From Nitrospirota bacterium (GTDB lineage Bacteria > Nitrospirota > Nitrospiria > SBBL01 > JAADHI01): a DNA stretch of 64,000 nt. A program made the position numbers and the translations under genes. Under the pieces are notes generated by a model. The model worked only from the letters and a program-made list of their open reading frames with translations, did not search any database and was not told the DNA's origin. Below, piece after piece: positions 22,820 through 52,543 of the stretch; the first letter of the stretch is position 1, and each line of letters begins with the position of its first letter. Location: contig JAJDBU010000063.1 of the NCBI GenBank assembly GCA_029261195.1, positions 1 to 64,000 on the forward strand, written 5' to 3'.

Positions 22820-23033
22820 GGAATGCCTCCTCGTCTTCAGAGCTGCCCCACTCATCCAGTGTGCTGGAGAGGGCCGCATGAAAGACTGCATCGAAAGGGG
22901 CAACACGCTTAAGGATAACAGCCCCGTTTTCAACTTCATAGGCGATGATGTCTCCAGGTTCAACGTTCAGGCTCTTCCGGATTTCTTTGGGAATAGTGAT
23001 TTGTCCTTTACTCGATATCCGACTGGTTTTCAT
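22809..23033 (-). CDS. AbrB/MazE-family antitoxin
   Basis: A 74-residue protein with the swapped-hairpin AbrB DNA-binding domain (ISSKGQITIPKEIRKSLNVEPGD), followed by an acidic tail that would bind and neutralise the toxin. A strong AAAGGAGG precedes the ATG. A consensus promoter and an inverted repeat lie upstream, consistent with autorepression by the toxin-antitoxin complex. Confidence 0.88.
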   Translation of the reverse strand: MKTSRISSKGQITIPKEIRKSLNVEPGDIIAYEVENGAVILKRVAPFDAVFHAALSSTLDEWGSSEDEEAFRDL

Positions 23034-25795: not shown

Positions 25796-28126
25796 TTAAC
25801 TTTTAACAATCTCAACCTCAACGGGACCCTTTATCGTACTCATGCAGGCTAGACGGTATTCTCCCGGTTTGAGATCACAAATATCCTCAAGGGTTTCGGT
25901 CTCCTGATCGCTCAGCGCATTTGAAAAATTATGGCTGCCCTTTAGAACCCGGAGTGGATCGCTTCCACAAATTCCGGCATGGCATTCAGCGGTAATATCC
26001 AAGCCATTCTCTTCAGCCGCTTCGCAAATGTTTTGTCCTTCTTTCAATAAAATCTTTTTTCCAAGATCTTTGAAGGTTACGAATAGACTGGTTTCATCAC
26101 TTGATGAACTCGCAGGTGGAAGATTTTCTTCGATGTGCTCAGAATGAATTTGGGGGGAAACCGGAGCCGGGGCGGAGGCTTGAGGTGGAGTAGTAGGGGG
26201 ACGCACTGGAGCAGGCCGGGTGTCCGTGTGGCCCGGGTCGATTACAACTCCGGATTGAAGACTGAAGATGAAATGCTGCTGACCCACTCGAAACTGATCG
26301 CCATGTGTCATCCGGAATGGATTCCGCACCCTCAAGTAGGAGCCGTTAATGCTCTTAAGGTCTTTCACGGCAACAGTCCCACCCTCAACAGATAATGCGA
26401 TATGGCGTCGAGATAAAGTCATGTCTTGACTGTCGAGCGGAATTTCAGGCGCACATCTTCCAAAGACAATCGCTTTGTTTCCCAAGTCATAGGACCCTAT
26501 TTCAGAGCCGAGATGGTTATAATGTATTGCGATAAATTTGTTTTGGTCGGTAGAAATCTGAAGAAACTGCCGACCAAGGTGGAGTAAATCCCCATGAGCA
26601 AGATCCACTTTCTTTGCCTCAGGTATCTGAAAAAAAATACCGGAGGGCGTTCCTTCATCACTTAATAAATACCCCTCCCGATTGTGAGAAATCGAAGCCG
26701 CTTTGTCGGATATTGTGTTGTCCTGGGGGAAGTCAATATCGCAGCCTTGCCGACCGATTGTCGTGGCGCCGTTGATCTTTAGAGGATATTCCCCTTCAGC
26801 AACACCACTCGGAAGCATTCGAATCAAAAAAGCGTCCTCTTTAGGGGCCTGAGGAGACGCGGACATTTCATTCTCTTTGGGAAGCTCGGGCTCTTTTGGA
26901 GGATCAAACAGGTTTTTCCGGCTCTCATCGCTTAAGGTCTCCGCATCGAGCACCCCTGTGTCGATCTCTTGCACACCCTCTATTTTTTGCTTGACGACTT
27001 GTGCGACCAGAACGCCGTCGCGCATACCCGTTTTAATATTTCCCGCATGTTTGATTTCTTTAAATTGAGAGGGATCGGCATTAAAATCATCTGTTTCAAA
27101 ATAGGCCTGGCTCAGAAGGTCCCCAATGAGATAGACATTTTTACGCTGAGTCTCAAGGCAGCGGGTCACCACCATTCTTTTTTTGTTTTTAGGGCCACCG
27201 ACAAGCATCCGGATGCCGATGGTATTCAAGAGACTTTCAGGGATATCTTCGCCAATACAGGCGATGCAACTTTCTTTCAGGAATTCAAGATGGGTCGTTT
27301 CTGTGGGTCTTCCTTCAATCACACGCCGGTCTACACGAATGGATAGGGATTCTTTGCGATCCTCCCCGGTGACAATGGCTGCGGGATCACTTTTCGGGTA
27401 ATATCGAATATTCCCATTAATTAAATAGGCTTCGAAAAAAACATCTGAAAGCGCCTTGGAGACACGCGGCATTCGGTCTCCACGGTAAAACCAACACACA
27501 GCCGTTGTATCCTTCGCCGCGACTTTCGCATTGGAGATGGCAATCACAGCCTCGGCAGCGGATGTGCCTCCACCGATCACGCAAGCGGGACGACCGACAT
27601 AGTACTCAGGGTCAGACAATCGAAATGCGATGCCGTCCATGTTGCCGGGAATATCGAAACGCCGCGGCACCCCGCGGCCAATCGCAACAACGATGTGTTT
27701 CGCCAGGATGAATAAGTTTTTTCGATTCACATGATCATAGGTTCTTACGCGATAAATCCCCGCGTCCGCCTCTTCAAGATCTCTTAATTCCACACCGATA
27801 CGTGATTTGACGCCATGTTGTTGATAGAGGGCTTTCCATTGAATGCACATGTCATCTTTGTCGATGGGGGAGAAATAGAGCGTTGAAAGCAGTTCTCCAC
27901 CCAGGGGGAATTTCATTTTATCTCCACCACCAAAACCGGGTAAAATTGATTTGTTTTTCGGGTAGTCTCGAATCCGCTTCATCAAGTCATCATAATCAAT
28001 TACGAGCGCTTTAAGGCCGAGTTCGGTGGCCCGAAATGCAGCAGTGGTGCCTGCGGGTCCTCCTCCGACAATTAGCAGATCAAAGATTTCATTTAGAGAT
28101 TCATCGCTTTGAGCCTGTTCTATCAT
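25796..28126 (-). CDS. FAD oxidoreductase - FHA - FHA - [2Fe-2S] ferredoxin fusion
   Basis: Residues 15-370 are a pyridine-nucleotide-disulphide type oxidoreductase with FAD loop GGGPAG and NAD(P) loop GGGTSA. The paired redox cysteines of thioredoxin reductase are absent, as in YpdA-like proteins. Two FHA domains follow (about 430-525 and 530-620); the second keeps the phosphothreonine-binding pattern FGR, SRRH and NGS, the first is degenerate. After a proline-rich linker the last 90 residues are a plant/adrenodoxin-like ferredoxin with C715, C720 and C761, but the third ligand position is Asp723. No membrane segment, so it is cytoplasmic. It is the last gene of the redox operon and could pass electrons from NAD(P)H to its partners; that role is inferred. 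Confidence 0.85.
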   Translation of the reverse strand: MIEQAQSDESLNEIFDLLIVGGGPAGTTAAFRATELGLKALVIDYDDLMKRIRDYPKNKSILPGFGGGDKMKFPLGGELLSTLYFSPIDKDDMCIQWKALYQQHGVKSRIGVELRDLEEADAGIYRVRTYDHVNRKNLFILAKHIVVAIGRGVPRRFDIPGNMDGIAFRLSDPEYYVGRPACVIGGGTSAAEAVIAISNAKVAAKDTTAVCWFYRGDRMPRVSKALSDVFFEAYLINGNIRYYPKSDPAAIVTGEDRKESLSIRVDRRVIEGRPTETTHLEFLKESCIACIGEDIPESLLNTIGIRMLVGGPKNKKRMVVTRCLETQRKNVYLIGDLLSQAYFETDDFNADPSQFKEIKHAGNIKTGMRDGVLVAQVVKQKIEGVQEIDTGVLDAETLSDESRKNLFDPPKEPELPKENEMSASPQAPKEDAFLIRMLPSGVAEGEYPLKINGATTIGRQGCDIDFPQDNTISDKAASISHNREGYLLSDEGTPSGIFFQIPEAKKVDLAHGDLLHLGRQFLQISTDQNKFIAIHYNHLGSEIGSYDLGNKAIVFGRCAPEIPLDSQDMTLSRRHIALSVEGGTVAVKDLKSINGSYLRVRNPFRMTHGDQFRVGQQHFIFSLQSGVVIDPGHTDTRPAPVRPPTTPPQASAPAPVSPQIHSEHIEENLPPASSSSDETSLFVTFKDLGKKILLKEGQNICEAAEENGLDITAECHAGICGSDPLRVLKGSHNFSNALSDQETETLEDICDLKPGEYRLACMSTIKGPVEVEIVKS

Positions 28127-28148
28127 TTCCTGTTTCCTTTAATGATTT

Positions 28149-29198
28149 TCACTCCGCAACAACCCTTGCTTTGATCAGTCCGAATCGGAGTTCATGTCTT
28201 GGCTGGATCTCAAGGATTTCGTTGATTTCTTCTCCATCGACAAAGGTTTTATTCTTGCTGCCGGAGTCTTTTAAATAAACCGATCTGTTTTTAAGGGTCA
28301 ATATGGCATGTTGCCTTGAGACCTCTTTCTGTTCAATGATGATATGAGCAGGGGCTTTACGACCGACAATATTTTCTCCCTCTTTTAATGGAAATTGTCG
28401 CTTGAGTGTCCCATCTATACAAATCTCAAGGAATAATCTCTGCCTTGAAGGTGGAGGTTTTTGAGGTAAATGGCTATCCGCTTTATTCAATTGGATCGTT
28501 TCAAGCCTGCTTTCCGGAAAGACGGTTTCGGCCTTGTCTTCTTTCACCTTTCCAAGTTCCGGAGGGAGTGCAAAAGCGCTTTCTCCAACTACAGTCTTCG
28601 AATGGTCCGAGATTGATGCTTCTTTCGTTTTTCCAAGTTCCGGAGGGAGGACGAAAGCGCTTTCTCCAACTACAGTCTCCGGCTGATCCGGTCTGGATTT
28701 TTCTTGTGTCTTTCCAAGTTCCGGAGGCAGCGTGAAAGGACCCTCTGCAACGACTGTTTTTGAGTGATCTCCGACCGCTTCTTTCGTTTTTCCAAGTTCG
28801 GGAGGGAGTACGAAAGCCCCTTGTTGAACAATTGTCTGCGGCTGTTGTTTTAATGTGGACTCTCTCTGTTTTAGATTAGGGTGCCGATTTTTACAGAGAT
28901 GGCTGTCTTGAAAAATGAAATCATACAATCCTGCAATTGAAATGACATTAAGGTGTCTTAGCTGTTCTTTTCCATCCACGCGGATATTGTCGAGATGCGT
29001 TCCATTTGCGCTGCCGAAGTCTTCCAGTATGAAACACTTTTGATTTTCATCGAAAAAAATCCTTAAGTGTTTTTTTGAAACTTCATTTTTGTCAAGGACG
29101 ACTTTATTTTGCCGTCCACGACCAATTGTTATTTCTTGATCAAAGGAAAGATCCACGCCTTTGATCGTTTTCTGCCTGGAATAGAGTTTTGCTCTCAC
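28149..29198 (-). CDS. twin-FHA adaptor with four threonine repeats
   Basis: FHA domains occupy residues 20-100 (GRG, SKKH, NGT all present) and 275-345 (GR, SRQH; the NG pair is replaced by NK). Between them lie four copies of a 20-residue repeat, TVVxE-AFVLPPELGKTKE, at residues 121-140, 147-166, 174-193 and 201-220, and a partial fifth near 224. Each repeat carries a threonine followed by two aliphatic residues, a plausible kinase site and FHA target. No signal or membrane segment is seen. A scaffold role, binding phosphorylated partners or itself, is inferred. Lies 22 bases ahead of the oxidoreductase gene. Confidence 0.85.
   Translation of the reverse strand: MRAKLYSRQKTIKGVDLSFDQEITIGRGRQNKVVLDKNEVSKKHLRIFFDENQKCFILEDFGSANGTHLDNIRVDGKEQLRHLNVISIAGLYDFIFQDSHLCKNRHPNLKQRESTLKQQPQTIVQQGAFVLPPELGKTKEAVGDHSKTVVAEGPFTLPPELGKTQEKSRPDQPETVVGESAFVLPPELGKTKEASISDHSKTVVGESAFALPPELGKVKEDKAETVFPESRLETIQLNKADSHLPQKPPPSRQRLFLEICIDGTLKRQFPLKEGENIVGRKAPAHIIIEQKEVSRQHAILTLKNRSVYLKDSGSKNKTFVDGEEINEILEIQPRHELRFGLIKARVVAE
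28539..28838 (-). repeat. four degenerate repeats of 78-81 bp in the FHA adaptor
   Basis: Tandem units of 26-27 codons encoding TVV...LPPELGK...E. The third and fourth copies are the most alike, pointing to recent duplication inside the gene. Confidence 0.85.
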
Positions 29199-29219
29199 CG
29201 CTTTACTCTCACAGTTAAC

Positions 29220-30836
29220 TCAATTTAAATAACGCAGCAAAGTGGATCGGTGCGTTTTGTTCGCATGAAAATCGTGACAGGTAGTACAATGTGTTGATGC
29301 GCCGTCAGTTTTATGGCATTTCTGGCATGATTCGATTGTTGGAATATTTTGTATTTCGGCATGATCCCGGGGGTTATTATCCAAAATTTTTCCGACGATA
29401 CCTTTTTCAATGGGAATTTCGGTATGACAGTCCAGGCATTTACTCTGAAGAATATGGGCACGATGATCAAATCGGGCTCTACGAAGAAGACGCTGGTCTT
29501 TTTGTACTCGGGCGATTGTTGCTTTGTTAATGTAGTGGCATTCCTGACAGTTTTTGCTTAGTTCATTGACAAGATTTAGAATTTTCTTGCCTTCTCCGGT
29601 TGATACTTGAAGGGGCATTTTTTGAAATTTTTCCGTCAGGGTCGTCCCGTCAATCTGCACATACGGATCTTTTAGACCTTGACTCAGCTGATTCAGCGCT
29701 TCGTCAATTTTCTTCAACTCTTTTTGAGCTTTCCCTCCCTTTGTCTGAGACAGGAGTTCCCTTGAACGATTGCTTAAGGTCTCCAGCGCTTCCATATAGA
29801 TTTCATGATAGAGTCCCCGATAGAGCTTGTTATAGCGCTCCCGCTCCTCCTTTGATCCGTAAGGGGGTAGTTCAGGAGAAGCATCCAGCAGGTCGGCAAG
29901 GCCTGCATCTTGATAAAGCATCTTCCGTAGGCCTCTCAAGTTTTCCAGTACCCAGGGGTCTCGGTGGACAATCCGGTTTTTTAAAACCTCGCCATCTTCT
30001 ATCTCAAACTCTTTCTTATTTGCATGAAAGGCCCAGAGGGTGCCTGGGGCTCTGCTTTTTTGCAAGGATTCCAATGTTTCCATGCCTGGAGAATGCTTTG
30101 TTTTTATTGGAAGAAAGTCTGTTGCTGTGTCTTTAGGAAGATGACAGGCAGCACAATGTTGATCAAAGTCGGTGACTTGGAAACTTTTTCCGTCAGTCTG
30201 CGGATTATGGCAAAAAAGACAAGCTTCTTCAGGATCAGTTAGTTTTTTCTTTTTGACTAACTCTTTGACATGTCGAATATGTGTGAATTTCAAACCGGGA
30301 GATTCTTCATTCCTCTGTCCGTGCTCCGCAAAGTCAAATTGAGGGTGGCCGTCGTTGAATGATTTAAATTTGTGACAGCTGACACAATAAGGATCTGCTG
30401 TCGACCTCAATTTCGATTCACGTCCCCCATGTTCAGCGTGGCAGGAAAAACAGGCGGGTTCAGCTTGTTTTTCTAAGGGGCGGCTATTATCATTTGACTG
30501 GTAAAGGTAATGTGCTTTGTAGGTGTAAACACCCCGTTCATCACCTTGTTTTTCGTGACATACAGAACAGGCCTTATTTGTGACGGGAGAAAAGGCTTCA
30601 TGGCAGGACTGGCAATCGTTTTCCAGAAAAGCGTGTTTTGAAGAAAGTAAACCTTTCGAAGCGAAACTGGCATTTTGTTTATTAAAGTTAAAGCTTGCAG
30701 CAAGCAGGAAGAGAAGAATTGCAACGCCCCCGATATAGAACATGCGTCGACGTGAGTCTGGAACGAGGTACTTTTTTGAAACGCTCAGGGAGACCTCACC
30801 AAAACTTCCTTTCTTTGCAGCCTTTTTTTTACTCAT
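29220..30836 (-). CDS. membrane-anchored decaheme cytochrome c
   Basis: Ten CXXCH sites are present: six between about residues 75 and 245 (CQSCH, CSVCH, CFSCH, CVSCH, CLFCH, CAACH) and four after residue 415 (CQECH, CLDCH, CQKCH, CTTCH). A charged helical stretch of about 170 residues separates the two groups. A basic N-terminus and one hydrophobic segment near residues 32-48 form an uncleaved inner-membrane anchor, placing the hemes in the periplasm. The heme spacing is of the cytochrome c3 / c7 type. It is the fourth gene of the operon, next to the ferredoxin-cytochrome b fusion from which it could accept electrons. Confidence 0.88.
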   Translation of the reverse strand: MSKKKAAKKGSFGEVSLSVSKKYLVPDSRRRMFYIGGVAILLFLLAASFNFNKQNASFASKGLLSSKHAFLENDCQSCHEAFSPVTNKACSVCHEKQGDERGVYTYKAHYLYQSNDNSRPLEKQAEPACFSCHAEHGGRESKLRSTADPYCVSCHKFKSFNDGHPQFDFAEHGQRNEESPGLKFTHIRHVKELVKKKKLTDPEEACLFCHNPQTDGKSFQVTDFDQHCAACHLPKDTATDFLPIKTKHSPGMETLESLQKSRAPGTLWAFHANKKEFEIEDGEVLKNRIVHRDPWVLENLRGLRKMLYQDAGLADLLDASPELPPYGSKEERERYNKLYRGLYHEIYMEALETLSNRSRELLSQTKGGKAQKELKKIDEALNQLSQGLKDPYVQIDGTTLTEKFQKMPLQVSTGEGKKILNLVNELSKNCQECHYINKATIARVQKDQRLLRRARFDHRAHILQSKCLDCHTEIPIEKGIVGKILDNNPRDHAEIQNIPTIESCQKCHKTDGASTHCTTCHDFHANKTHRSTLLRYLN

Positions 30837-30884
30837 AGAGAGACCAAGATGAAAAGTATTACCCTCTGAATGTCTTGAAAAAGA

Positions 30885-33371
30885 TTAATAATAGCTCACC
30901 GCCAGGATATGAATAAAGACGAGTACAATGAGGAGCATGGAGATCGGAAGGTGGGCATAGAGCCACCAGCGTAAGGGCCTTTGCAGGGTGTAGTGCGCAT
31001 CAATCTTTAACTTTGATTTATACAATTGCAGGAGCGCTTGCAATTTATCCTTTTCCTCGCCCCCTAACAAAGTCTTCAAATAATCGAATTCCCGTAATTT
31101 TGACTGGAGACCTCCGGTGATATCAAAAAAATAGACAAAGCGTGCCTGGGGTCGCTGTAATTCCGGGAGTACTTTTTTCTCATAAAAACTTTTGACCGGG
31201 TCCTGGCACTTGCTTAAATATTTTTCCGCACGTTCTCGAATCTCATCAACCAATTCCTGAACACGTCCATGATGAATTTCTGTAGAAAGTCCTGATGAGA
31301 GTACTCTTGGCATCCACTTTTGCAAAGCCCACCCAAGCAGGCCGGAAAGGAAGACAATCAGGCTGACCCACCAGACAGAAGCATTTAAGACACCTGTAGG
31401 GAGTTTGAAGCCCACGTGCATGAGCATGAGCAAAAAAAACAGTATCCCGCTATAGAGATGAAAGGTGCGCCAGGTGACGGCTCTTCCCAGACGGAGTCGT
31501 GTCGAAAGCTTCATCGTCCGGCGTCTCGCTCCCAGAAGGGCAGCACCCACAAGCAAGAGCGTCGCCGCCGCACCGTAAGAAAAACCCCAGATATTATTCG
31601 GACGGACTTGAGAAACCATCAGATTGACAATAAACACCACAACACTCGAAATCATACCGAGAAAGAATCCTGCTTTTAAAAGGGGTGATTCTGTTTTATT
31701 TTTGGGTGTTGAAGCTGTTGTTCCATTCGCCGGTTTCGATAATAAGGCCTGAAAACCTTCAATCGAGTTGACGCGGGAGGCGGAACCTTGCGGACAGTTG
31801 ATGACACATGCGGGTTCATGGCCTGTGTCATGACAAAGGTTGCACTTGCTAGCTACTTTTTGGGACTTCCCTCTGAGTACGGAGGGAAGCATGTCGTTCG
31901 GCCAGGTCTGACCTGTTGTGTGCATGACAATGGAATCATAAGGACAGTTGTTGGCGCAGGCGCCGCAACCAATGCAGATTTGATCGTTAATCTCTACCAA
32001 AGCGCCGATTCCCCCACGTTGTATTGCACCTGTGGGGCAACCGACCATACAAACGGGGTCCTGACAGTGATAACAGGATTTTGGAATGAGTAGATTGTCG
32101 ACCTTATCACCCTCCCGGACAAAGCGGGGGCGGCCACTATGTGTTGCAGCGCAGGCTCTCACACAGTCGTCACAGCGCGTACAGGTCTCAAGATCCATCA
32201 CTAAAAGGCTATTCGCCTGAACAAGGCCGCGCGTCAGCGCCAACTGTGTAAATGCCGATGAGCTGATATTCCGACGACTGTAGCCGGCCTCCCTGATGCG
32301 ATCCACTGCCGTTTTCCAAAGACATTCTTCAATGTCGGGGCGCTGATCCAGGAGGGCGCTAAAATGTTGCTTCGGGATTTTAATTAATTCAGCATATTCA
32401 ACTGAAACGGCCGTCATCTCCCAGCCGGTGATATCGTCCAAGAGGAGTTCGGCTTCACCAAAGGACATGCCCTTGGAAAGGTAGGAGACGACGATATCTC
32501 CTTCACTGAATTTCTGCAGCAGTTTGACAAAGCCTGAGCGCACCAGGTAGATCGCATCAACTGCGCCACCTTCTTTCGCGATGACATCGCCAGGCCCTGC
32601 AGAGACCAGTTCGACCTGCTCCTTGAGGGTATTAATGAATTTAGCGTCGCAGTTTTGCAGCATGGGTGTCACTTTTAATTGTGCAACAAGGAACCGGCTT
32701 CGATAAAGTTTGTCGATCCAATTTTTTAATGCACTTGATTTTCGCTTCATTGCACGCAAGGCAGCAACCCGAATTTGAACTAAAGTACAGTTGCTTGAGG
32801 TTCGTGCAGTCACAGACTGAGGCCAACCGCTCATGGCTCCGATTTCACCAAAAATCTCACCATGGCTTAGCATCGAGCCGGCTCCTTTTGGAAAATCAAC
32901 ATTTGAGGAAAGTAAGTGAATCGCATTCCCCTTATGTTTTTTTGGGGAGGCGGGTTGTGACGCTTTTTCCAGATCTTTAGAAAGACCGGAAGAGAGGGTA
33001 TCCCGAGACATGACGATTGTCCGCAGTGGATCAAAAATAGGTGCGGCTTCATGATGGCTGTCATTCAATGAGTGTTGAAAAGTCTCAACCTCACCATCGA
33101 CAAGAAAAAAGGCAAGATCAATATAGGCGCCTTCTTCAAAAAGGACGGCATTTTTCGACCATTCGGCGACTGAAATATCGGGGCTGATCTTTTCCAAAAA
33201 CTGATCATCGTAGTCCTTAAAACAATCATATTGCCTAAGTTTTTTTGGGGACAATTTCTGGGAGATCGACCGGATGCCGACATTGCCTTCGTAAGAACTC
33301 CAACGGTCTTTATACTGTTCGATGCGTCGTAGCATCGTTTTATCGGACTGAATGTCTATTGTTTCGCTCAT
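30885..33371 (-). CDS. dual cyclic-nucleotide-binding, 4x[4Fe-4S], b-type membrane fusion
   Basis: Domains in order are as follows. The first cyclic-nucleotide-binding fold is at about 50-205 (GEIFGEIGAMSG) and contains an inserted loop. The second is at about 235-345 (GMSFGEAELLLDD). A ferredoxin part at 395-530 has sixteen cysteines in four CX2CX2-4CX3C-like groups (C397-C407, C433-C445, C466-C476, C510-C526), as in DmsB/HybA. A membrane part has about five helices. Histidines 638/652 and 807/821, each pair 13 apart on a helix, could bind two b hemes. A charged cytoplasmic segment of about 100 residues precedes the last helix. Neither nucleotide domain shows the classic phosphate-binding arginine clearly. 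Electron transfer across the inner membrane under small-molecule control is inferred. Confidence 0.85.
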   Translation of the reverse strand: MSETIDIQSDKTMLRRIEQYKDRWSSYEGNVGIRSISQKLSPKKLRQYDCFKDYDDQFLEKISPDISVAEWSKNAVLFEEGAYIDLAFFLVDGEVETFQHSLNDSHHEAAPIFDPLRTIVMSRDTLSSGLSKDLEKASQPASPKKHKGNAIHLLSSNVDFPKGAGSMLSHGEIFGEIGAMSGWPQSVTARTSSNCTLVQIRVAALRAMKRKSSALKNWIDKLYRSRFLVAQLKVTPMLQNCDAKFINTLKEQVELVSAGPGDVIAKEGGAVDAIYLVRSGFVKLLQKFSEGDIVVSYLSKGMSFGEAELLLDDITGWEMTAVSVEYAELIKIPKQHFSALLDQRPDIEECLWKTAVDRIREAGYSRRNISSSAFTQLALTRGLVQANSLLVMDLETCTRCDDCVRACAATHSGRPRFVREGDKVDNLLIPKSCYHCQDPVCMVGCPTGAIQRGGIGALVEINDQICIGCGACANNCPYDSIVMHTTGQTWPNDMLPSVLRGKSQKVASKCNLCHDTGHEPACVINCPQGSASRVNSIEGFQALLSKPANGTTASTPKNKTESPLLKAGFFLGMISSVVVFIVNLMVSQVRPNNIWGFSYGAAATLLLVGAALLGARRRTMKLSTRLRLGRAVTWRTFHLYSGILFFLLMLMHVGFKLPTGVLNASVWWVSLIVFLSGLLGWALQKWMPRVLSSGLSTEIHHGRVQELVDEIRERAEKYLSKCQDPVKSFYEKKVLPELQRPQARFVYFFDITGGLQSKLREFDYLKTLLGGEEKDKLQALLQLYKSKLKIDAHYTLQRPLRWWLYAHLPISMLLIVLVFIHILAVSYY

Positions 33372-33379
33372 TACGGTTT

Positions 33380-33802
33380 TTAAGATTCCTGGTTTAGGAC
33401 GTGATGGAGGTTGTCAAGTCTCTTCTTTAGCATTAAAAGGCTGTCTTCAATGGAATCTTTCTCTGTCATTTCAGGAAAGGCCGGGAGTTCTGGATCCTTT
33501 TTTTCGACATATTCCGGGATTTCCGGACTGGAAGGCCCCTTGTGTTTTGTTATTTGTCGGGAAAGACGATCCAAGCGTTCTTTTAGAATTAAAAAACTTT
33601 TTTCTTCAATTGCTTCTCCCAGAGTGGATTTTGGTTCTTGAAATGTTGGTTTTTCCCTTGAGGGAAAAGGAGCATCTTTCCCCCAACTCGTCAGCGGGGC
33701 AGTAATACTCATAAAAAAGAAAAATAGCAGGAGAAGTAAACTAGAAGAAAGGCCTTCCAAGGGATCATCAAGGTTTGTTTTTTTTTTGGTGACTTTATTC
33801 AT
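33380..33802 (-). CDS. small membrane-anchored protein with paired helices
   Basis: A 140-residue protein not recognised as any family. A charged N-terminus precedes one very hydrophobic segment ending APLTSWGKDA, similar to the signal region of the neighbouring eight-heme protein (SPLSSWGQDA). The remainder holds two related amphipathic helices (FLILKERLDRLSRQ and LLMLKKRLDNLHH) joined by a proline-rich linker. The start is uncertain: ATG 33802 is 38 bases after the upstream stop, and a longer frame from 33871 would overlap it. It ends eight bases before the fusion gene, so it is part of the operon and may be a periplasmic partner subunit. Confidence 0.6.
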   Translation of the reverse strand: MNKVTKKKTNLDDPLEGLSSSLLLLLFFFFMSITAPLTSWGKDAPFPSREKPTFQEPKSTLGEAIEEKSFLILKERLDRLSRQITKHKGPSSPEIPEYVEKKDPELPAFPEMTEKDSIEDSLLMLKKRLDNLHHVLNQES

Positions 33803-33839
33803 GATGGTGGGTGCCCAATTAATAGTGGCATAAGAGACT

Positions 33840-36800
33840 TTATGCCGATTTTTTCCCTCGCCACCAGGCAATACCTGAAAAAAATGCGATGGCCCAAATC
33901 CATTGCCAATTGTTTAAGAAATAATTTTTCGCTTTCCGGGCAAAACCTGCACTAATTTCAACTTTTTGATCAAATGTTCTAATTTTTTTAGGAGTCGATT
34001 TTCCCCCGATGTTGATCAATGCGGATAAGCTTAAATGAAGGTTCTGTGCCCCCTCTTTTGTGGGTGTCACCTCCCACTTCCATTCTGTTGCTCCCCCTTC
34101 ACTGAGTGCTTGTGTTTCCGGGGTGATTGTTGAAATTGAAAAATTTCGACCCGATAGACTGGCCTCTAGACTACCAACAACATTGATATCGACGCCCATC
34201 CTATCTGCATCTTTTTTGATCATATTATTGAGATCTTTAATCGTTTTGCCAGGGGGAAGGGTTAAGGTAACTGGGTGGGCTTCATTCACTTGAATAGTAA
34301 GTGGCGCATCAAAAGTGATGTCTCCAAAATCCAGTTTTTTAATGGCTTCATTAATGGCAATCAAAGAATCACGGATGATCAGTTCTTGCACGGCCTGGAC
34401 TTGTTCCGGCTCAAGCGCTTCTTTTTCAGCTTCCCCAGCTCCCTCCTCTTCGGCTTCGTCGATTTCCGAGCTGGCCGGGCGAATTGGTTCCTGCTTTTTC
34501 GCAGGCTTTGGAATCGGTGAAACCCTGCTGGGGCTCTGAGTAGGTGTTTTGAAAGCTTGCGGCTGTGATTTCGAGGGAGTTGCGCTTTCCGCAAGTCTTG
34601 GTTCTTGCCGAGGAATTGGAGAGACCGGGGCCCTTGTCGTCGGAGTCGTCTCACTCAAAGCGATTTCCTCAGGAATTTGTGCCTCCGGCTTTGTTGGCGT
34701 TTGTACTGGGGCAGGAACAATGGGGGATGATGCGACTCGGGGTGGCGCAGAAGGTACCTTCTTTCTTGGAACCGACGGAGATTTTTGTGCCGGCCGATTT
34801 TCAGATTCCGGGACAGAGACCATTGCGAATTTTGGTACAGGCCCTCTTGCTGCAAGGACCTTTTCGTAGGCTTTTGTCATCACTGCCGGAGAAGCCAAGC
34901 CACTTTCCCAATGTTTTATTTCCTTTACCCTCTCTGCATACTTGAATTTTTCACCTGATGAATGACCGGAGGAGATCAAACGTTGATCCGTAATGTAGTG
35001 ACAGCTCGCGCAATTCTCGGCCCGAACAGCCTCGTCTTTCAGTTTGACCAGGCCGAGCTTTAGGCCTTTGATATAACCCGGTCTCTTTGCCCCTAAGTCT
35101 TTCTCTCCGTCCTCATGCGGTTTGAGATAAGCCTTTGCAGGTCCGTGGCAGGACTCGCAACTGACCCCGGACCGGACTTTTTTCTTATTTTTTTTAGAAA
35201 TGACTGTTCCGTGGCAATTCATGCAAACCTGAGTGCCCTTTGCCATTTCAGAGGGCTTCACTCCATACAGCTTTGCAATTTTTACGGCTTTTTCGTGATC
35301 CTTTCCTTTTGTTGCTATAAAAGGTTTATGTGTATTTTTATGCTTGTCCTCTAACCACCACTCAGTTTGCTCAGAATGACATTTACCGCAAGAACGGGGG
35401 CCGAGGGTAAGATGTTTTGATCCGGGACGAATCGTCGCTCTACGCTTGCCGACAACCTGTGGTTTAGGCGTTTGTCTTGGGGGTTTTGAGGGTGGACGCA
35501 CTTGAGGCGCTTTGGGGATCGTTTCCCGGAGAGGAGTATTTATTTTTGGCGCTACTGGAGCCACTGAGACTGAAGGCCTGAGTTCACTCTGAATCGGAGT
35601 GTTCGTGTTTTTGCGTTTAGGCAGAACGGAGGCAAGCTGATCACTTTTTTGGGGGGGCTTTTGAATGGCTGGGGATGACTCGACGGGAACAGGACTTTGA
35701 CTCAAGTCCGCTTGAATCTCTGCCTCCCTATTTTTTGTCCCGGCTTGCGGCTCAACAGCTTCTTCCTGCTCTTCAGGGGTATTGAGGGCGACTTCGCTCT
35801 GTGCTTCCTCTTTAGGACTGGCATCAGGAGGGCTATCGTCAATCTCATTTTCAATCTTGTCTTCAGCGGCTTCAGTATCAAAAATTTCAGAGTCGAGTGC
35901 GCCAAGCTTGGAACCGTCATGATTTTTGAGAAAAAGTTTTGTCGCCTCAGAAACCGTATTTGCCGCCTTAAGCAATAGCGACTTATTGTTTGGCTTAAGC
36001 GCTTCTTCCTCTACGATCTCCCCCAAATTTTTAAGTTCTGAGACTTCTAGCAGGGAGCTAAGATCACTCATATCAGCCATTGCATCTGCAACGCGGTCTA
36101 TCATTGAACTGGCATAGGTTCCATTTTTTGTTGCGATGGACAGACTTCTCAAGACATACTCCAGTTGGACCGTTTGGCCGACAACATACATAAGACGAAG
36201 TCGTTCTACAGGCCTGACGACATTCTCTTTGCCTCCGTCCTGCGCAGCCAGCAAAAAATTATGACGAATTTTATTCGCCATTTTTACAAATTCAAAATCT
36301 CCGGTCCCGGTGCCATGCCCTCCGACATTGACCAGTTTCTCATTCGGGACAAGATGACACTGGAAGCAGTTTTCGATGACAGGATAAAGGTCTGAGGGTC
36401 GCATCATACCTGCCTGACGACTTTCCTTAATTCGTTTGGCCCTATGCTCAGGGGACTCCGTCTTGTAATCAATCCCTTTGCCACCATAATCACTATGTAT
36501 GTTTATCCAGTCTTTCCCCGGACCATGACAGGCTTCACATGAGACACCGGATGTGCTGGTTACCTTCCCTCTTTTGAGGGTGGGCGTGTAATGGCAGGCG
36601 ATGCACTCACTGTTTCGTTTAATCACCCTATAGCCGAGTTTTTTTGCTATTTCCTTGGCCTTTGATTTCATGTGCATTGCGGTAGGCTTGCCTTCAACAA
36701 ATGCTTTAACAAATCCTTTGGCGTGTTTCGTTTTTTCCCATGCCTCAAATTCGAGTTCATGGCATTCTCCGCACTCTTTAGCTGACATGTATTTATCCGG

Positions 36801-36947
36801 ATCACCCTTTGAAAATTTTATAGACGAAGCATCCTGCCCCCAACTCGACAATGGCGAAAAAATGATTAGGAGGAGAAGCGGCATCACAAAAGCAGCTGAT
36901 TTAAAAAGAGATTCAATGTTCCGGATGGCAAAAGATTTAAGAGGCAT
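33840..36947 (-). CDS. eight-heme cytochrome c554-like protein with C-terminal anchor
   Basis: A 1035-residue exported protein. The signal peptide ends SSWGQDA. There are two homologous tetraheme modules: residues about 50-215 (CGECH, CIACH, CEACH, CFQCH) and about 545-700 (CGKCH, CMNCH, CESCH, CASCH). Both carry VSCE-CHGP and related spacing, matching the cytochrome c554 / NapC-NirT-associated fold. Between and after them are long proline- and glutamate-rich linkers. A beta-rich domain (about 855-1000) precedes a single C-terminal membrane helix with a positive tail, so the protein is tethered to the inner membrane from its C-terminus. It is the first gene of the minus-strand operon. Confidence 0.88.
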   Translation of the reverse strand: MPLKSFAIRNIESLFKSAAFVMPLLLLIIFSPLSSWGQDASSIKFSKGDPDKYMSAKECGECHELEFEAWEKTKHAKGFVKAFVEGKPTAMHMKSKAKEIAKKLGYRVIKRNSECIACHYTPTLKRGKVTSTSGVSCEACHGPGKDWINIHSDYGGKGIDYKTESPEHRAKRIKESRQAGMMRPSDLYPVIENCFQCHLVPNEKLVNVGGHGTGTGDFEFVKMANKIRHNFLLAAQDGGKENVVRPVERLRLMYVVGQTVQLEYVLRSLSIATKNGTYASSMIDRVADAMADMSDLSSLLEVSELKNLGEIVEEEALKPNNKSLLLKAANTVSEATKLFLKNHDGSKLGALDSEIFDTEAAEDKIENEIDDSPPDASPKEEAQSEVALNTPEEQEEAVEPQAGTKNREAEIQADLSQSPVPVESSPAIQKPPQKSDQLASVLPKRKNTNTPIQSELRPSVSVAPVAPKINTPLRETIPKAPQVRPPSKPPRQTPKPQVVGKRRATIRPGSKHLTLGPRSCGKCHSEQTEWWLEDKHKNTHKPFIATKGKDHEKAVKIAKLYGVKPSEMAKGTQVCMNCHGTVISKKNKKKVRSGVSCESCHGPAKAYLKPHEDGEKDLGAKRPGYIKGLKLGLVKLKDEAVRAENCASCHYITDQRLISSGHSSGEKFKYAERVKEIKHWESGLASPAVMTKAYEKVLAARGPVPKFAMVSVPESENRPAQKSPSVPRKKVPSAPPRVASSPIVPAPVQTPTKPEAQIPEEIALSETTPTTRAPVSPIPRQEPRLAESATPSKSQPQAFKTPTQSPSRVSPIPKPAKKQEPIRPASSEIDEAEEEGAGEAEKEALEPEQVQAVQELIIRDSLIAINEAIKKLDFGDITFDAPLTIQVNEAHPVTLTLPPGKTIKDLNNMIKKDADRMGVDINVVGSLEASLSGRNFSISTITPETQALSEGGATEWKWEVTPTKEGAQNLHLSLSALINIGGKSTPKKIRTFDQKVEISAGFARKAKNYFLNNWQWIWAIAFFSGIAWWRGKKSA

Positions 36948-37085
36948 ATTTAAGATTTTGTAGAATATGGAAGGTCAAGGCTTGCCCTAAATAACTAACT
37001 TTTTAGTGAATTTTATACATGACAGGGGACTTGATATTAGACGACCTGACTATAACCAATGAACGTTAATGTTTGCAAATTTCCC

Positions 37086-37114
37086 TTGACATAAACATAA
37101 AAAGGAAATAAGTT
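37086..37114 (+). promoter_or_regulatory. sigma70-like promoter of the cytochrome-porin pair
   Basis: TTGACA (37086-37091) and TAAGTT (37109-37114) are exactly 17 bases apart in the 289-base divergent gap between the two cytochrome transcription units. The leader to the start codon would be about 115 bases. No clear promoter for the minus-strand operon was found in the same gap. Confidence 0.5.
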
Positions 37115-37236
37115 TTGACCCGAAAGTCTTTTTCCAAGCAGCATTCGGCTGTATGCGATCAAGATGTTTACGCGTTTGTTTGCTACTCACCCAATGAAAA
37201 CCAAATCGAAATGAATAAAGCCATTAGCAGAGGGAT

Positions 37237-39051
37237 ATGATGACTATTAACTTCAATGCTCGCTCAGAAAGTTCGGAACAAGCCCCTGGGATGTTGAGGG
37301 CCTGGACTGGAATGCCAGGTATGACAATAATCTTTACGCTCACGCTCAGTGTTTTTCTGTCCTTCAGTGGAGGCGCTCAGGCGGGTGAAGCGAGCTCAGA
37401 TCCTCATGTAGAGGCTTACGCAAAAAGCCAATTTCCCTCTGCAAAGGTTTGTGCAGGTTGTCACAAGAAAATCTACAAAGAATGGTCTAGCTCTGCACAC
37501 GCCTATTCATCGGTTTCACCCATGTTTTCAAAATTTGAACAGCTCATCTCCAACCTGACACAAGGCACACTGGGCTCCTTTTGCATGCGGTGTCATTCTA
37601 CTGTCGCCACGATTTTTGAAGAACCGAGGGAACTTGTCCTTTGGGATCGACCGCAAGTCTCTCAGGAAGGGATTACCTGCGTGACTTGTCACCGTGTGAA
37701 TGAACACTACGGGCGGTCATCCGGTGAGCGTCGACTTGTACCGGGAGATATTTTTTCTCCGGTCTATGGCCCTTTTGAAGGGGATGGCGTAGAAGAAGTT
37801 ATTGAAAATAAAAGTTTTTTTAAAGTGAAGACTTCAGAAGATGAAAAAGGACTCGGAAAGCGCATCCATGCCAAAGCGATTAAGTTCGAGCAAATAGACA
37901 AAAGCGAGTTTTGTGTTGCCTGCCACCAGGTTGCCGTGGCGCCAGGCATTAAACTTGAAGTCGTTTGGGATCAATTCAGGGCTTCACCTGCCAGAAAGGA
38001 AGGCACGACCTGTCAGGATTGCCATATGGGCAAAGTGCCCGGCTTGAACAAGGGCTATGAAAAAGGGCCGGCGGCCCAATTTATCGGGAAGTCCGTTAAA
38101 GAAGATCGCAGACATTCAAATCACGCCTTTTATGGACCGGGTTATTCAATGGCACATCCTGGTGTCTTCCCTCAAAACCCTAAGAACGCAGAGTTTGCGA
38201 TGAAGGATTGGCTCAGCTACGACTATCGTGCCGGGTGGGGAAGGGATAAATTCGAGACTGCGGTGAATGACGGAAAAATAAAGGTTGATTTCCCGAAGGT
38301 ATGGGCTGATGTAGAGGATCGATATACAGCTAGAGATATTATCGAAGAAAATCTGGAGGCAATCAAAGCCGAAGGAAAACTCCGCAAACAACTCATGTCA
38401 AACGGTTCCCACATCGACGGTCCTTTTTTCTCTGGAAAGCCGACGGAAGGAGAGGCGCTCAAATTCAAGTATCGTGTAAAAAACATGAACAAAGGGCATA
38501 ATATGCCCAGCGGATCACTAGGGATGCAACCGCAATTATGGCTCAATGTCGCACTGATTGATCCTAATGGAAGGCGTATATGGGAGTCAGGCTATCTTGA
38601 TTCAAATGGCGACCTTGCTGATCAGCATTCATTGGACGTCCTGGCTGGAAAGATCGAACGCGATGCTCAGTTATTCAATTTACAAACAAAGTTTCTGACC
38701 ACAAATGTTAAAGGAACCGATCGTGAAATGTACTTGCCGGTCAACTTTGATATAGACCAACGTCCCTTTATTCGCCCGGATGGCAGACCGAACACCGTAA
38801 TGAACCACCCGCCATTTATCCGTATGGAAGCCCGGAGCATTCCACCCTTAGGCACAAAAGAAGCGGAATACAAGGTGCCTGCTGCTTTGATGAAGCTGCC
38901 GGGCAAGTATCGCCTTGCCTTAAGGCTGCGCCACAGATCAGAGCCTGTTTATTTCATGAAGTTTATCGGGGCGACCGACGAAATGCTGAAAAATGTAAAT
39001 GAAAGGATGATTGATGTGCACAGTTATACGGTGGAATTCGATGTCAAATAA
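37237..39051 (+). CDS. five-heme cytochrome c554-type protein
   Basis: An exported 604-residue protein. A signal peptide is present after an N-terminal extension (hydrophobic core TIIFTLTLSVFLSF, cleavage near AQAG). Five CXXCH sites (CAGCH, CMRCH, CVTCH, CVACH, CQDCH) fall in the first 270 residues, with further histidines as possible distal ligands (AHAY, RRHSNHAF). The C-terminal half has no heme sites and appears beta-rich (GHNMPSGSLGMQPQLWLNV), as in periplasmic multiheme proteins that dock to other subunits. AGAGGG precedes tandem ATGs. Its end overlaps the outer-membrane barrel gene by 11 bases, strongly suggesting a shared complex. Confidence 0.87.
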   Translation: MMTINFNARSESSEQAPGMLRAWTGMPGMTIIFTLTLSVFLSFSGGAQAGEASSDPHVEAYAKSQFPSAKVCAGCHKKIYKEWSSSAHAYSSVSPMFSKFEQLISNLTQGTLGSFCMRCHSTVATIFEEPRELVLWDRPQVSQEGITCVTCHRVNEHYGRSSGERRLVPGDIFSPVYGPFEGDGVEEVIENKSFFKVKTSEDEKGLGKRIHAKAIKFEQIDKSEFCVACHQVAVAPGIKLEVVWDQFRASPARKEGTTCQDCHMGKVPGLNKGYEKGPAAQFIGKSVKEDRRHSNHAFYGPGYSMAHPGVFPQNPKNAEFAMKDWLSYDYRAGWGRDKFETAVNDGKIKVDFPKVWADVEDRYTARDIIEENLEAIKAEGKLRKQLMSNGSHIDGPFFSGKPTEGEALKFKYRVKNMNKGHNMPSGSLGMQPQLWLNVALIDPNGRRIWESGYLDSNGDLADQHSLDVLAGKIERDAQLFNLQTKFLTTNVKGTDREMYLPVNFDIDQRPFIRPDGRPNTVMNHPPFIRMEARSIPPLGTKEAEYKVPAALMKLPGKYRLALRLRHRSEPVYFMKFIGATDEMLKNVNERMIDVHSYTVEFDVK

Positions 39052-40591
39052 ACTCACACAATATTTATTCATTAGCGTTTTTTTCGCCATATTACTTCCT
39101 CAGCCCCTTTTTGCAACAGAAGGGGAGGATCCGCCTAAAGTCGGAAGCGGTGCATCCATTGTTCCGCATGTTGATTCAGTCTTTAGTGAAGGTCCTCAGT
39201 ATTCACCGGACTATAATGCCGAAGCCGAACAGAAGACCTATTCAGGGAGGACTGCGGTTCCGAAAATACAACGACCCCTTCTGGAAATAGGGCGTCGTCT
39301 TTATGATGACGGCCCCCTCCAAGCCTCATCTAATTTAATGGGAGAGAAGAATCCAAGCATGTTTCATCTGATGGTCTTCGGTGATCTTCGAACGGCAGTT
39401 GCGTATAGCGACAATGCTGGAGCCGATCTAGGGGAAGCGGCTGCCCAACTGAACCTGAATGTAGATATCAAACTGACTTCAACGGAAAGGCTGCATGCAT
39501 TCTTCCGACCACTGACGGATGAGGGAAATACCCGTTGCGAGTTTTCCGGTAGCATTGCCGATGCCAACGAAGACGATTGTCAGTTTGAATCCGATTTAGA
39601 ACCGCTCACTTATTTTTTTGAAGGTGATCTCGGCGCAATTGTCGGTGGCATCATCGGCAGACAAAACCCCTTTGATCTCCCCATTACCTTTGGAAAGATT
39701 CCCCTGCTTTTTCAAAACGGGATCTGGGTTGAAGACGCTTTTCTAGGGGCGGCCTTTACCATCCCTGCTCGAAATAGTCCCGCACTCGACATTTCGAATT
39801 TTGATGTTACTTTTTTTGCCGGTGTTGATGACGTGACAAGTGACGCACTCGAGGGAACGGCAGATGACGGTGAGGGTCAGATCTATGGTGTGACCGCATT
39901 TCTCGAAGCGATGAAAGGTTATTTTGAAATAGGTTACGGACTGACTGTTGATGGACAGGAAGGCTGTGAACGGGATTACCATAATGCAACAATCTCATTT
40001 ACCCGTCGCTACGCCGGTAAGGTTTCAAACTCTGTTCGAGTGATTGGAAATTTTGGGCAAGAGGAAGTGAAAACCACAGTATTGTCCGCATGTCGCACGG
40101 GTATTGGGGCAAAAGAGACTCAGACTGCTGACGGAATTATGGTGCTTTTGGAAAACTCCTGGATTACCAGTAACCCGACTTTTGTTGTGCCTTATCTGAA
40201 CCTGTTCTACGGACAAGATCGACCTCAGGCATTGGCAAAAAACCAGGGCCTTCTCCAGAACACCGGCATCCTTTTTGAGGGTGACGGCGCACTAACGCGT
40301 TTCCCCGCCATAAACGATGCAGGCGCTTTTTCCTATGGTGGTGCCTTAGGACTCGAAATACTTGGTCCAGCCCTCAACTGGCAGGTCGTCCTTGAAGTAG
40401 CGACATCAATGAAAAACGATGACTTGGCGGATGACCCAAAATCAGGAGTCGAAGAAGCGACCGGAGTGGGTATTCGAGCTCAGATGCCGCTGACTAATGC
40501 ACTGATTGTCCGTGTGAATGGGATGTTTGCAGATGTCAAGGATGGAGAAGATAAATCCGGTGCGACACTTGAGTTCCGTCATAAGTTCTAA
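39041..40591 (+). CDS. outer-membrane beta-barrel paired with the cytochrome
   Basis: Starting at ATG 39041 the protein has a signal peptide (cleavage near LFATEG). The roughly 490-residue body contains many short alternating strands with aromatic girdles and acidic loops. The final residues LEFRHKF end in phenylalanine, the usual barrel assembly signal. I do not recognise the family; it is not an obvious MtrB. The 11-base overlap with the cytochrome gene and the terminator 68 bases downstream mark a two-gene unit. This is consistent with a porin that holds or serves a heme protein. An alternative is a substrate porin for a periplasmic reductase. Confidence 0.7.
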   Translation: MSNKLTQYLFISVFFAILLPQPLFATEGEDPPKVGSGASIVPHVDSVFSEGPQYSPDYNAEAEQKTYSGRTAVPKIQRPLLEIGRRLYDDGPLQASSNLMGEKNPSMFHLMVFGDLRTAVAYSDNAGADLGEAAAQLNLNVDIKLTSTERLHAFFRPLTDEGNTRCEFSGSIADANEDDCQFESDLEPLTYFFEGDLGAIVGGIIGRQNPFDLPITFGKIPLLFQNGIWVEDAFLGAAFTIPARNSPALDISNFDVTFFAGVDDVTSDALEGTADDGEGQIYGVTAFLEAMKGYFEIGYGLTVDGQEGCERDYHNATISFTRRYAGKVSNSVRVIGNFGQEEVKTTVLSACRTGIGAKETQTADGIMVLLENSWITSNPTFVVPYLNLFYGQDRPQALAKNQGLLQNTGILFEGDGALTRFPAINDAGAFSYGGALGLEILGPALNWQVVLEVATSMKNDDLADDPKSGVEEATGVGIRAQMPLTNALIVRVNGMFADVKDGEDKSGATLEFRHKF

Positions 40592-42083: not shown

Positions 42084-43559
42084 GTGAACTCTTTAGGACG
42101 TTACGAAATTGTAGAAGAACTGGGTCGAGGTGCAATGGGCATTGTCTACCGGGGGAGCGATCCAAAAATAAACCGAACCGTTGCCTTGAAATGTCTTCAT
42201 GCCAACTTACTTGAGGGCGATACGGGTATCGGAGAGCGCTTTCATCAAGAAATGCGTGCACTCGGTCGTTTGGTTCATCCTAATATTGTGACGATATTTG
42301 ACGCTGGAGAAGCGGCCGATTCCGGACAGGCCTACATCGTCATGGAGTATGTGGAAGGGATTTCCCTGGCAGAGGTCATCAAAAAAAAACGAACACTTTC
42401 AATCGATCAGATTGTTCATATCGGCGTACAGATTTGTCGTGGACTCGATTTTGCTCACTCAAAAGGGGTGGTTCATCGGGATATTAAACCGGGGAATATC
42501 CTGCTTTCAGAAGATTTAATCAACGTCAAGATCGCAGATTTCGGCATTGCCAGATTAGACGATACCTCCTTAACACAAACTGATTGCCTCACAGGAACCC
42601 CACAGTATATGTCTCCGGAACAATGCCGAGGCGATAAGCTGGATGGTCGCTCCGATCTTTTTGCTCTCGGTGTTTTGCTTTATGAACTTCTGGCCCAGGA
42701 AAAGGCCTTTCAGGGCGATTCCTTCACAAGTATCCTGCTTCAGGTACTCAGTGATACGCCAAAACCCCCTTCCACCGTTTCATCTCATATTCCGGAATCT
42801 CTAAGTGAAGTGGTGATGCATGCTTTGGAAAAGAAACCGGAACAGCGATTTGCTTCAGGAAATGAAATGGCGGATGCCCTGCTGAATGGCATTAAAATGC
42901 CTGTACCCCTGGCTCCTCCGGAAGAAGATGAAAATGAAAATGAAGATGAAGACGACGCGACAAGAGTGCTTACACCTCTTGATGCTCGAGTTCTAGATAA
43001 GAGGAAGGTGTCAGACGAAAAGTCGAAATCACCCCAGACTCGCTATCTTGTAGTGATTTCCGTCTTATTGGTGATTGCAGCGGGGCTTTTCTTTGCCCTT
43101 CGGAAGTCTCCTCAAATGGCTGAACCTGAAAAGGTGGACATCGAAGCCGGGCGTAAAAAAATTGACGATATAAATACTAAAGCTGAGGCAGAGGCCAAGG
43201 CAAAAGAAGCAGCCAGAGTTAAAGCAGAAGCCAAGGCAAAATCAAAAGAAACAGCCAGAGCTAAGGCTGAAGCCAAAGTAAAAGAAACCGCCAGGGTTAA
43301 GGCTTTGGCTTTGGCTGAGGCTGATCGCTTAAGAATTAAAAAACTTTCTGCCGGCCTCTTGCATTTTAATACAAGCCCTAGCGGCGCCGATATTTTAATC
43401 AATGGTGAGCTGAAGGGTATCAGTCCAGTGTCGATAGAATTGGTGGGCGGAAAACCCTATGACCTAGTGATCAGGAAGGCGGGCTATCACGCTTTAGAGG
43501 CAACGATTGATGTCCCTGTAGGAGAAACACCCATGAACCTCACATTATTAGAGGAGTAA
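42084..43559 (+). CDS. membrane Ser/Thr protein kinase with PEGA domain
   Basis: A Hanks-type kinase of the PknB group. The glycine loop is LGRGAMGIVYRG, with Lys36, the catalytic His131-Arg-Asp133 loop, Asp152 of DFG and activation-loop threonines before GTPQYMSPEQ. An acidic juxtamembrane run ends in DDATRVLTP, a plausible autophosphorylation and FHA-binding site. One membrane helix lies near residues 318-340. Outside, an alanine/lysine/glutamate-rich helix with internal repeats is followed by a PEGA domain (FNTSPSGADILINGE). GTG start with AGGATG ahead. It is tightly linked to the CsgG-like genes, and it is the only kinase of this type in the window, about 13 kb from the FHA proteins. Confidence 0.9.
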   Translation: MNSLGRYEIVEELGRGAMGIVYRGSDPKINRTVALKCLHANLLEGDTGIGERFHQEMRALGRLVHPNIVTIFDAGEAADSGQAYIVMEYVEGISLAEVIKKKRTLSIDQIVHIGVQICRGLDFAHSKGVVHRDIKPGNILLSEDLINVKIADFGIARLDDTSLTQTDCLTGTPQYMSPEQCRGDKLDGRSDLFALGVLLYELLAQEKAFQGDSFTSILLQVLSDTPKPPSTVSSHIPESLSEVVMHALEKKPEQRFASGNEMADALLNGIKMPVPLAPPEEDENENEDEDDATRVLTPLDARVLDKRKVSDEKSKSPQTRYLVVISVLLVIAAGLFFALRKSPQMAEPEKVDIEAGRKKIDDINTKAEAEAKAKEAARVKAEAKAKSKETARAKAEAKVKETARVKALALAEADRLRIKKLSAGLLHFNTSPSGADILINGELKGISPVSIELVGGKPYDLVIRKAGYHALEATIDVPVGETPMNLTLLEE

Positions 43560-52475: not shown

Positions 52476-52543
52476 TATGCAGGCTTATTGGAAAGAGTTC
52501 ATCCTATGAAGAATGATCCAAGTTGCTGAGCAGAGAGGGTAGG

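Follow-up and report, generated by a model that had tools for sequence, protein, structure and literature searches.

A porin-cytochrome cluster variant in a Nitrospirota bacterium that probably links cytoplasmic NAD(P)H to both membranes

The window analyzed here is a 64,000-nucleotide stretch of contig JAJDBU010000063.1 (GenBank assembly GCA_029261195.1) from a Nitrospirota bacterium. It contains a block of eight genes whose core corresponds to PCC4, a putative porin-cytochrome cluster known from genome reading (He et al. 2017, PMC5566968). We consider it probable, though well short of certain, that this block is a PCC4 variant that moves electrons from NAD(P)H through both membranes and is tuned by forkhead-associated (FHA) domains and a Ser/Thr kinase.

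An eight-gene locus of the PCC4 type

All eight open reading frames (ORFs) were confirmed, six on the minus strand and two divergent on the plus strand, and a kinase gene lies beyond them. The features are as follows (aa, amino acids; CNB, cyclic-nucleotide-binding; MHC, multiheme cytochrome).

25796..28126, minus strand: 776-aa FAD/NAD(P)-binding oxidoreductase (Pyr_redox_2) with tandem FHA and a C-terminal plant-type ferredoxin-like domain (C-x4-C-x2-D), the proposed NAD(P)H entry (Pfam; motif conservation in 16 homologues)
28149..29198, minus strand: 349-aa tandem FHA protein (Pfam; residue alignment)
29220..30836, minus strand: 538-aa decaheme c-type cytochrome with an N-terminal membrane anchor and 10 CXXCH, corresponding to the 10-heme MHC of PCC4
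30885..33371, minus strand: 828-aa membrane protein with a CNB tandem (residues ~50-350), four [4Fe-4S] motifs (397-526) and a five-helix di-heme cytochrome b (~563-827) (Pfam, AlphaFold2, Foldseek, Cys/His conservation)
33380..33871, minus strand: 163-aa small protein, secreted or anchored
33840..36947, minus strand: 1035-aa octaheme cytochrome with two c554-type tetraheme modules, a C-terminal domain and a membrane anchor, corresponding to the 4-heme MHC of PCC4, duplicated
37237..39051, plus strand: 604-aa pentaheme cytochrome with a signal peptide, corresponding to the 5-heme MHC of PCC4
39011..40591, plus strand: 526-aa outer-membrane beta barrel of ~18 predicted strands with a C-terminal Phe, corresponding to the PCC4 porin (alignment, AlphaFold2, Foldseek)
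42084..43559, plus strand: 491-aa Ser/Thr protein kinase with a PEGA domain, a candidate writer of the phosphothreonine read by FHA domains (Pfam; FHA-kinase co-location)

Pfam searches identified Pyr_redox_2, two FHA domains and Fer2 in the 776-aa protein and two FHA domains in the 349-aa protein. The 828-aa protein matched cNMP_binding twice as well as 4Fe-4S, and the three cytochromes matched c554/c7 cytochrome models; neither the barrel nor the 163-aa ORF had a Pfam hit. Motif counting gave 23 CXXCH across the three cytochromes (10 in the 538-aa, 8 in the 1035-aa and 5 in the 604-aa protein). Altogether the FHA domains number four and the CNB domains two; the cluster further encodes four [4Fe-4S] motifs, a di-heme b domain with five helices and a barrel predicted to have 18 strands. 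A sequence-only reading of the window had already listed these kinds of domain and the 23 CXXCH, and its gene inventory was borne out by Pfam, motif counts and AlphaFold2. The barrel ORF probably starts at an internal ATG at 39041. In four related loci (L037, L045, L046 and L049) the tetraheme cytochrome carries the counterpart of the 163-aa ORF at its C-terminus, so this ORF looks as if it has been split off from the C-terminal end of the adjoining cytochrome. The homologue of the octaheme cytochrome in L037 has a single module (356 aa, 4 CXXCH).

As described in the main text of the PCC4 paper, the cluster combines a porin, periplasmic MHCs with 4, 5 and 10 hemes, a PF13247 Fe-S gene, further redox genes, and an inner-membrane protein with five transmembrane helices (TM), two WX3HX13H motifs and SGXXG on TM4. 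In subgroup II, the Fe-S gene adjoins that of the inner-membrane protein, and the two are annotated as one gene in Oceanospirillum beijerinckii (PMC5566968). The window has the porin, as a barrel of ~18 strands by AlphaFold2 and Foldseek, and the heme counts, with 5 and 10 exact and the 4-heme c554 module duplicated (8 CXXCH). It also has the five TM, the two WX3HX13H motifs and SGXXG, and a PF13247 match (34.2 bits, cut-off 26.2) fused upstream of the cytochrome b. By these main-text features, with the published loci compared by description only, the window core is of the PCC4 subgroup II type. The sequence-only reading had known of no characterized system with this combination; as far as the main text of He et al. 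describes it, the core is PCC4, itself uncharacterized. A description as a new kind of system was dropped after this match.

In the pathway we favor, NAD(P)H would reduce the FAD of the 776-aa flavoprotein, whose ferredoxin-like domain would pass electrons to the four [4Fe-4S] clusters and two b hemes of the 828-aa protein. From there they would reach the anchored decaheme cytochrome, then the c554-type tetraheme modules and finally the pentaheme cytochrome attached to the 18-strand outer-membrane barrel, a module that may be exposed at the cell surface. The FHA domains of the flavoprotein and the 349-aa protein would bring in partners or modulate the input complex once the nearby kinase has phosphorylated a threonine.

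The genes stay together across phyla

A scan with one genome per species yielded at least 459 confirmed relatives, of which the best 80 loci were analyzed; in unannotated loci, domains were detected through mechanical ORF calls and profiles built from those loci themselves. The window falls in a well-supported tree clade of 19 rows, in which it and L037 are joined by 17 others; this clade spans Acidobacteriota, Myxococcota, Calditrichota, Chlorobiota, Ignavibacteriota, Zixibacteria and KSB1. Gene order is mostly preserved within this clade: pentaheme, barrel, c554, CNB/Fe-S, cytochrome b, decaheme, FHA, flavoprotein. When only loci of 15 kb or more are counted, 11/11 window-type loci and 41/42 loci of the other group have a cytochrome b gene; the decaheme gene has the same counts, and c554 is found in 11/11 and 39/42. 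A reductase-module match was present in 10/11 and 38/42, respectively; the FNR/2Fe-2S profile also matches window-type flavoproteins through the common ferredoxin domain. Chance clustering was considered and is ruled out, because the gene order is kept across several phyla.

We also profiled the 144 genomes of the host's class. Only two of them, the window genome and G008, encode the flavoprotein, and it is absent from a genome of the same genus. The pentaheme cytochrome is encoded by the window genome and by five genomes of one genus; in four of these five, a cytochrome b match lies a few kb away on the same contig, and in the fifth (G089, an assembly of 160 contigs) the two matches are on separate contigs. 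One locus, L042, could be viewed whole and its genes are clustered. The system genes are thus patchy in the class, yet not scattered: every occurrence whose locus was read sits in a cluster. Together, these data uphold the earlier proposal of one conserved unit with a plausible path from NAD(P)H through FAD, Fe-S, heme b and heme c to an outer-membrane module.

The input module and the direction of electron flow

Three reductase layouts share the input position. Window-clade members have a TrxR-like FAD domain with tandem FHA and Fer2 (the nearest NCBIfam model to the 776-aa protein is YpdA-like, below cut-off). Planctomycetota, Verrucomicrobiota, Alphaproteobacteria and others have an FNR-type FAD/NAD domain with Fer2, and in L038, L039 and L044 the FAD domain is fused to the CNB-CNB-Fe-S chain. 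Because these different layouts occupy one position, the reductase modules across relatives favor, as judged from gene content, a cytoplasmic NAD(P)H link over a quinone-only model.

The ferredoxin-like domain was part of the sequence-only reading as a [2Fe-2S] carrier, and this holds in part. A Fer2 domain is present by Pfam, whereas the plant-type pattern (C-x4-C-x2-C plus a distant C) is broken, with Asp as the third ligand in the window. Asp replaces this cysteine in nearly all clade members, and Cys is retained only in L061 among the 16 homologues. An Asp-ligated [2Fe-2S] cluster is possible.

Across 85 homologues of the 828-aa protein, the sixteen Fe-S cysteines hardly vary, and the lone CXXCH of the 828-aa protein belongs to the fourth 4Fe-4S motif; AlphaFold2 confidence is low across this region. 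The cytochrome b domain has four invariant His in two HX13H pairs (31 sequences).

The opposite direction has to be weighed. In the published PCC4 model, extracellular Fe(II), Mn(II) or a mineral donates electrons that run inward to the quinone pool, and PCC4 clusters are reported from Fe(II)-oxidizers and a drinking-water filter (PMC5566968). Such lithotrophic intake, in which the NAD(P)H modules would make reducing power by reverse electron flow, agrees with what that paper describes of the model and its hosts, but most clusters carry dedicated NAD(P)H reductase modules. The patchy distribution in the host's class, with the flavoprotein in two of 144 genomes and missing from a same-genus genome, also argues against it, since a system distributed in this way is not core metabolism of the lineage. 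Finally, related systems are encoded in the cultured isolates Nisaea denitrificans, Hwanghaeella grinnelliae, Lacipirellula limnantheis and Sphingobium herbicidovorans, and these isolates are aerobic heterotrophs. We regard intake as distinctly unlikely. Outward flow is favored by analogy with NADPH oxidases and by the membrane potential, although both arguments are indirect.

FHA domains co-occur with Ser/Thr kinases

The residues that bind phosphothreonine (GR, SxxH, N) are present in three of the four window FHA domains, namely the second of the flavoprotein and both in the 349-aa protein, and alignment shows that they are kept across phyla. The first FHA domain of the flavoprotein is degenerate (His is missing in the window, Asn in nearly all homologues). 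In other loci, FHA domains occur on the reductase (L071, L089, L099) or inside it (L070), on the CNB-Fe-S protein (L070, L071, L099) and on the decaheme cytochrome (L039, and L044 by sequence reading).

Across the 76 loci of at least 9 kb, a Ser/Thr kinase gene was found within the fetched flanks, the only regions covered by the kinase and cyclase scans, at 12/19 loci with FHA on a system protein versus 4/57 loci without (Fisher p=1.9e-6, a test that ignores relatedness). Outside the window clade, two Planctomycetota loci (L071 and L099) show the same pairing; as sister rows of the tree, they count as one event. In the window, the kinase gene has the orientation of the barrel gene and lies two genes beyond it. 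PEGA-domain Ser/Thr kinases are found near the system in the window, L052, L060 and L062, and in L060 a PP2C phosphatase gene and then a kinase gene directly follow the flavoprotein.

Two signaling inputs, phosphothreonine and cyclic nucleotide, had been proposed for this locus. The first gains independent support, as FHA-bearing systems sit near Ser/Thr kinase genes, including the window kinase that the sequence-only reading omitted. The second does not fit the residues of the CNB tandem, as described below.

The CNB tandem of the Fe-S/cytochrome b protein

AlphaFold2 predicts a tandem CNB unit in the N-terminal half of the 828-aa protein, and its Foldseek matches are PKA/PKG regulatory subunits, including a trypanosome PKA-R that does not use cAMP. 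The phosphate-binding Arg of CNB-A is Gln in 19/19 window-clade rows and Arg in 64/65 other rows; this position was left out of the patterns used in the relative scan. CNB-B of the window also lacks its phosphate-binding Arg, and the Glu of the CNB-A phosphate-binding cassette is kept in 19/19 clade rows. Because the Arg is Gln across the clade, cyclic-nucleotide gating is unsupported at the window locus. A ligand other than cAMP/cGMP, or a purely structural role, appears most likely from these residues.

A nucleoside is one precedent for such a ligand. Trypanosome PKA-R has a polar residue in place of the phosphate-binding Arg and takes nucleosides as ligands (PMC10959531). The tandem CNB fold and the Arg replacement are common to this protein and the window, while the ribose-binding glutamate of PKA-R is Gly in the window. 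PKA/PKG regulatory CNB units control a kinase, whereas the window CNB forms one chain with an Fe-S/cytochrome b electron carrier. The Arg-to-Gln change offers a clean biochemical test of CNB ligand switching.

The earlier model, in which phosphothreonine and cyclic nucleotides both gate an outward conduit, draws on the CNB and FHA domains that Pfam places physically on the carriers, on the CNB-A Arg retained outside the window clade (64/65), and on one locus with a nearby cyclase gene. That gene, L065:7653-9278 in an Acidobacteria metagenome-assembled genome, encodes an FHA-GAF-class III nucleotide cyclase ~3.2 kb downstream of a CNB-CNB-Fe-S gene, and the L065 CNB pair retains both phosphate-binding arginines. 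Yet neither window CNB domain has the Arg, the change in CNB-A runs through the whole clade, and a motif scan found cyclase candidates at 3/86 loci, none of them window-type. Dual gating of this kind is therefore very unlikely.

A second alternative is that the FHA and CNB domains serve only as structural adaptors for assembly of the complex, free of any signal-dependent gating. The loss of the CNB signature in the clade, the degenerate FHA domain, and loci such as L042 that have the cytochrome/barrel core and no detected CNB or FHA domain are all consistent with this. Three FHA domains, however, keep all phosphothreonine-binding residues across phyla, and FHA presence tracks with kinase neighbors. 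We judge adaptors alone to be unlikely, with perhaps some chance of being correct. At the other extreme, a clade of systems within PCC4 might have become a signal-gated conduit from NAD(P)H to the outer membrane, in which kinase and FHA control the flavoprotein and a PKA-like CNB unit with a new ligand (a nucleoside or other metabolite) directly regulates the Fe-S/cytochrome b carrier. This fuller proposal is tentative, and we would place it on the doubtful side.

The outer-membrane module

The barrel was folded on its own, as an alignment of an MHC-barrel fusion with separate homologues had misaligned the barrel rows. AlphaFold2 predicts a long-stranded barrel of ~18 strands (pTM 0.76). In Foldseek, the PDB structures closest to this model are MOMP/OprD-type porins. 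Natural pentaheme cytochrome-barrel fusions occur in two loci (L056:4366-7737 and L057:4250-7666). In three window-type loci, another outer-membrane protein and a decaheme protein of ~1200-1300 aa replace the pentaheme/barrel module. Barrels from Alphaproteobacteria, Elusimicrobia and a few others share 40-49% identity with that of the window, against 21-25% for the barrels of the window's own core clade. The closer match of the window barrel to those of other phyla suggests that the outer-membrane module may have been exchanged between lineages.

These data bear on whether the system reaches extracellular acceptors at all. It could instead be a periplasmic or outer-membrane reductase, for example of a soluble substrate that enters through the porin. 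The barrel does resemble substrate-specific 18-strand porins, and PCC4 has no extracellular cytochrome according to the main text of He et al. (PMC5566968). On the other hand, the pentaheme-barrel fusions tie a cytochrome to the outer membrane, and the three loci that swap in a different outer-membrane protein and a large decaheme protein are hard to square with a periplasmic reductase. We consider such a reductase improbable, if a serious contender.

Elsewhere in the window, an ORF with a MazF/PemK-like motif was spotted by eye at 22490-22963 (minus strand), and 51972-52475 and 52523-53029 encode an adjacent, apparently duplicated pair of similar small secreted proteins. In the divergent intergenic region, scanning for promoters and terminators gave no signal above shuffles.

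Strength of the proposal and its implications

Several observations weigh against the NAD(P)H-driven pathway that we prefer. A reductase match is absent in 5/19 window-type loci and 9/62 others, of which several, not all, are on short contigs or near a contig end. With Asp as the third ligand, a plant-type [2Fe-2S] cluster could fail to form or be of an unusual kind. The barrel, which has 18 predicted strands and resembles MOMP/OprD rather than MtrB, may have no multiheme protein inside it. Relatedness confounds the FHA-kinase association and inflates its statistic, because most FHA cases belong to one clade. The PCC4 model in the main text of He et al. runs the opposite way, from an extracellular donor to quinone, and members of the system are known from their genes and predicted folds rather than from biochemistry.

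PCC4 was proposed, in that main text, as a metal-oxidation conduit that feeds quinones, and the NAD(P)H reductase modules of most relatives would instead point to a cytoplasmic NAD(P)H link. If true, the FHA/kinase control would mean that regulation by phosphorylation is built into a transmembrane electron carrier. The idea can be tested now because related systems occur in cultured strains; the exact window-type variant needs heterologous expression because members of its clade are nearly all metagenome-assembled genomes.

Comparison with known systems

MtrCAB/MtoAB resemble the window in pairing multiheme cytochromes with an outer-membrane barrel. The MtrB barrel has 26 strands, against ~18 predicted for the window. 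No family or PDB match of the MtrA/MtrB type was found for the barrel, and the decaheme cytochrome matched only c7, paired-CXXCH and MtrC-domain models. PDB sequence searches with the cytochrome b and barrel profiles returned no credible relative.

For the inner membrane, NADPH oxidases and ferric reductases offer a functional analogy, with NAD(P)H, FAD and two b hemes across the membrane and HX13H pairs on TM3 and TM5. The window differs in that FRD (PF01794) was not among the Pfam families found, and in its added Fe-S clusters and periplasmic multihemes.

A literature search for FHA or CNB combined with multiheme cytochromes found nothing relevant, and the main text of the PCC4 paper contains none of the terms FHA, cNMP, cyclic nucleotide, FAD and ferredoxin (PMC5566968). 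MHC tables list a "Forkhead-associated protein" with 10 hemes in 27 Gallionellaceae (PMC10734462), which, so far as the tables describe it, resembles the FHA-decaheme fusions of L039 and L044. No discussion of signaling was found in the parts consulted of the papers on PCC3 and Gallionellaceae MHCs (PMC5566968, PMC10734462). PCC3 has an inner-membrane protein with motifs similar to those of the window, and differs in its porin and its long extracellular MHC, as described in PMC5566968.

PCC4 is the closest system by main-text description. The window, in which the Fe-S gene and the inner-membrane protein are fused in one 828-aa chain, adds to it FHA domains, a CNB tandem that lacks the phosphate-binding Arg, a TrxR-like reductase, a neighboring kinase and a duplicated tetraheme module.

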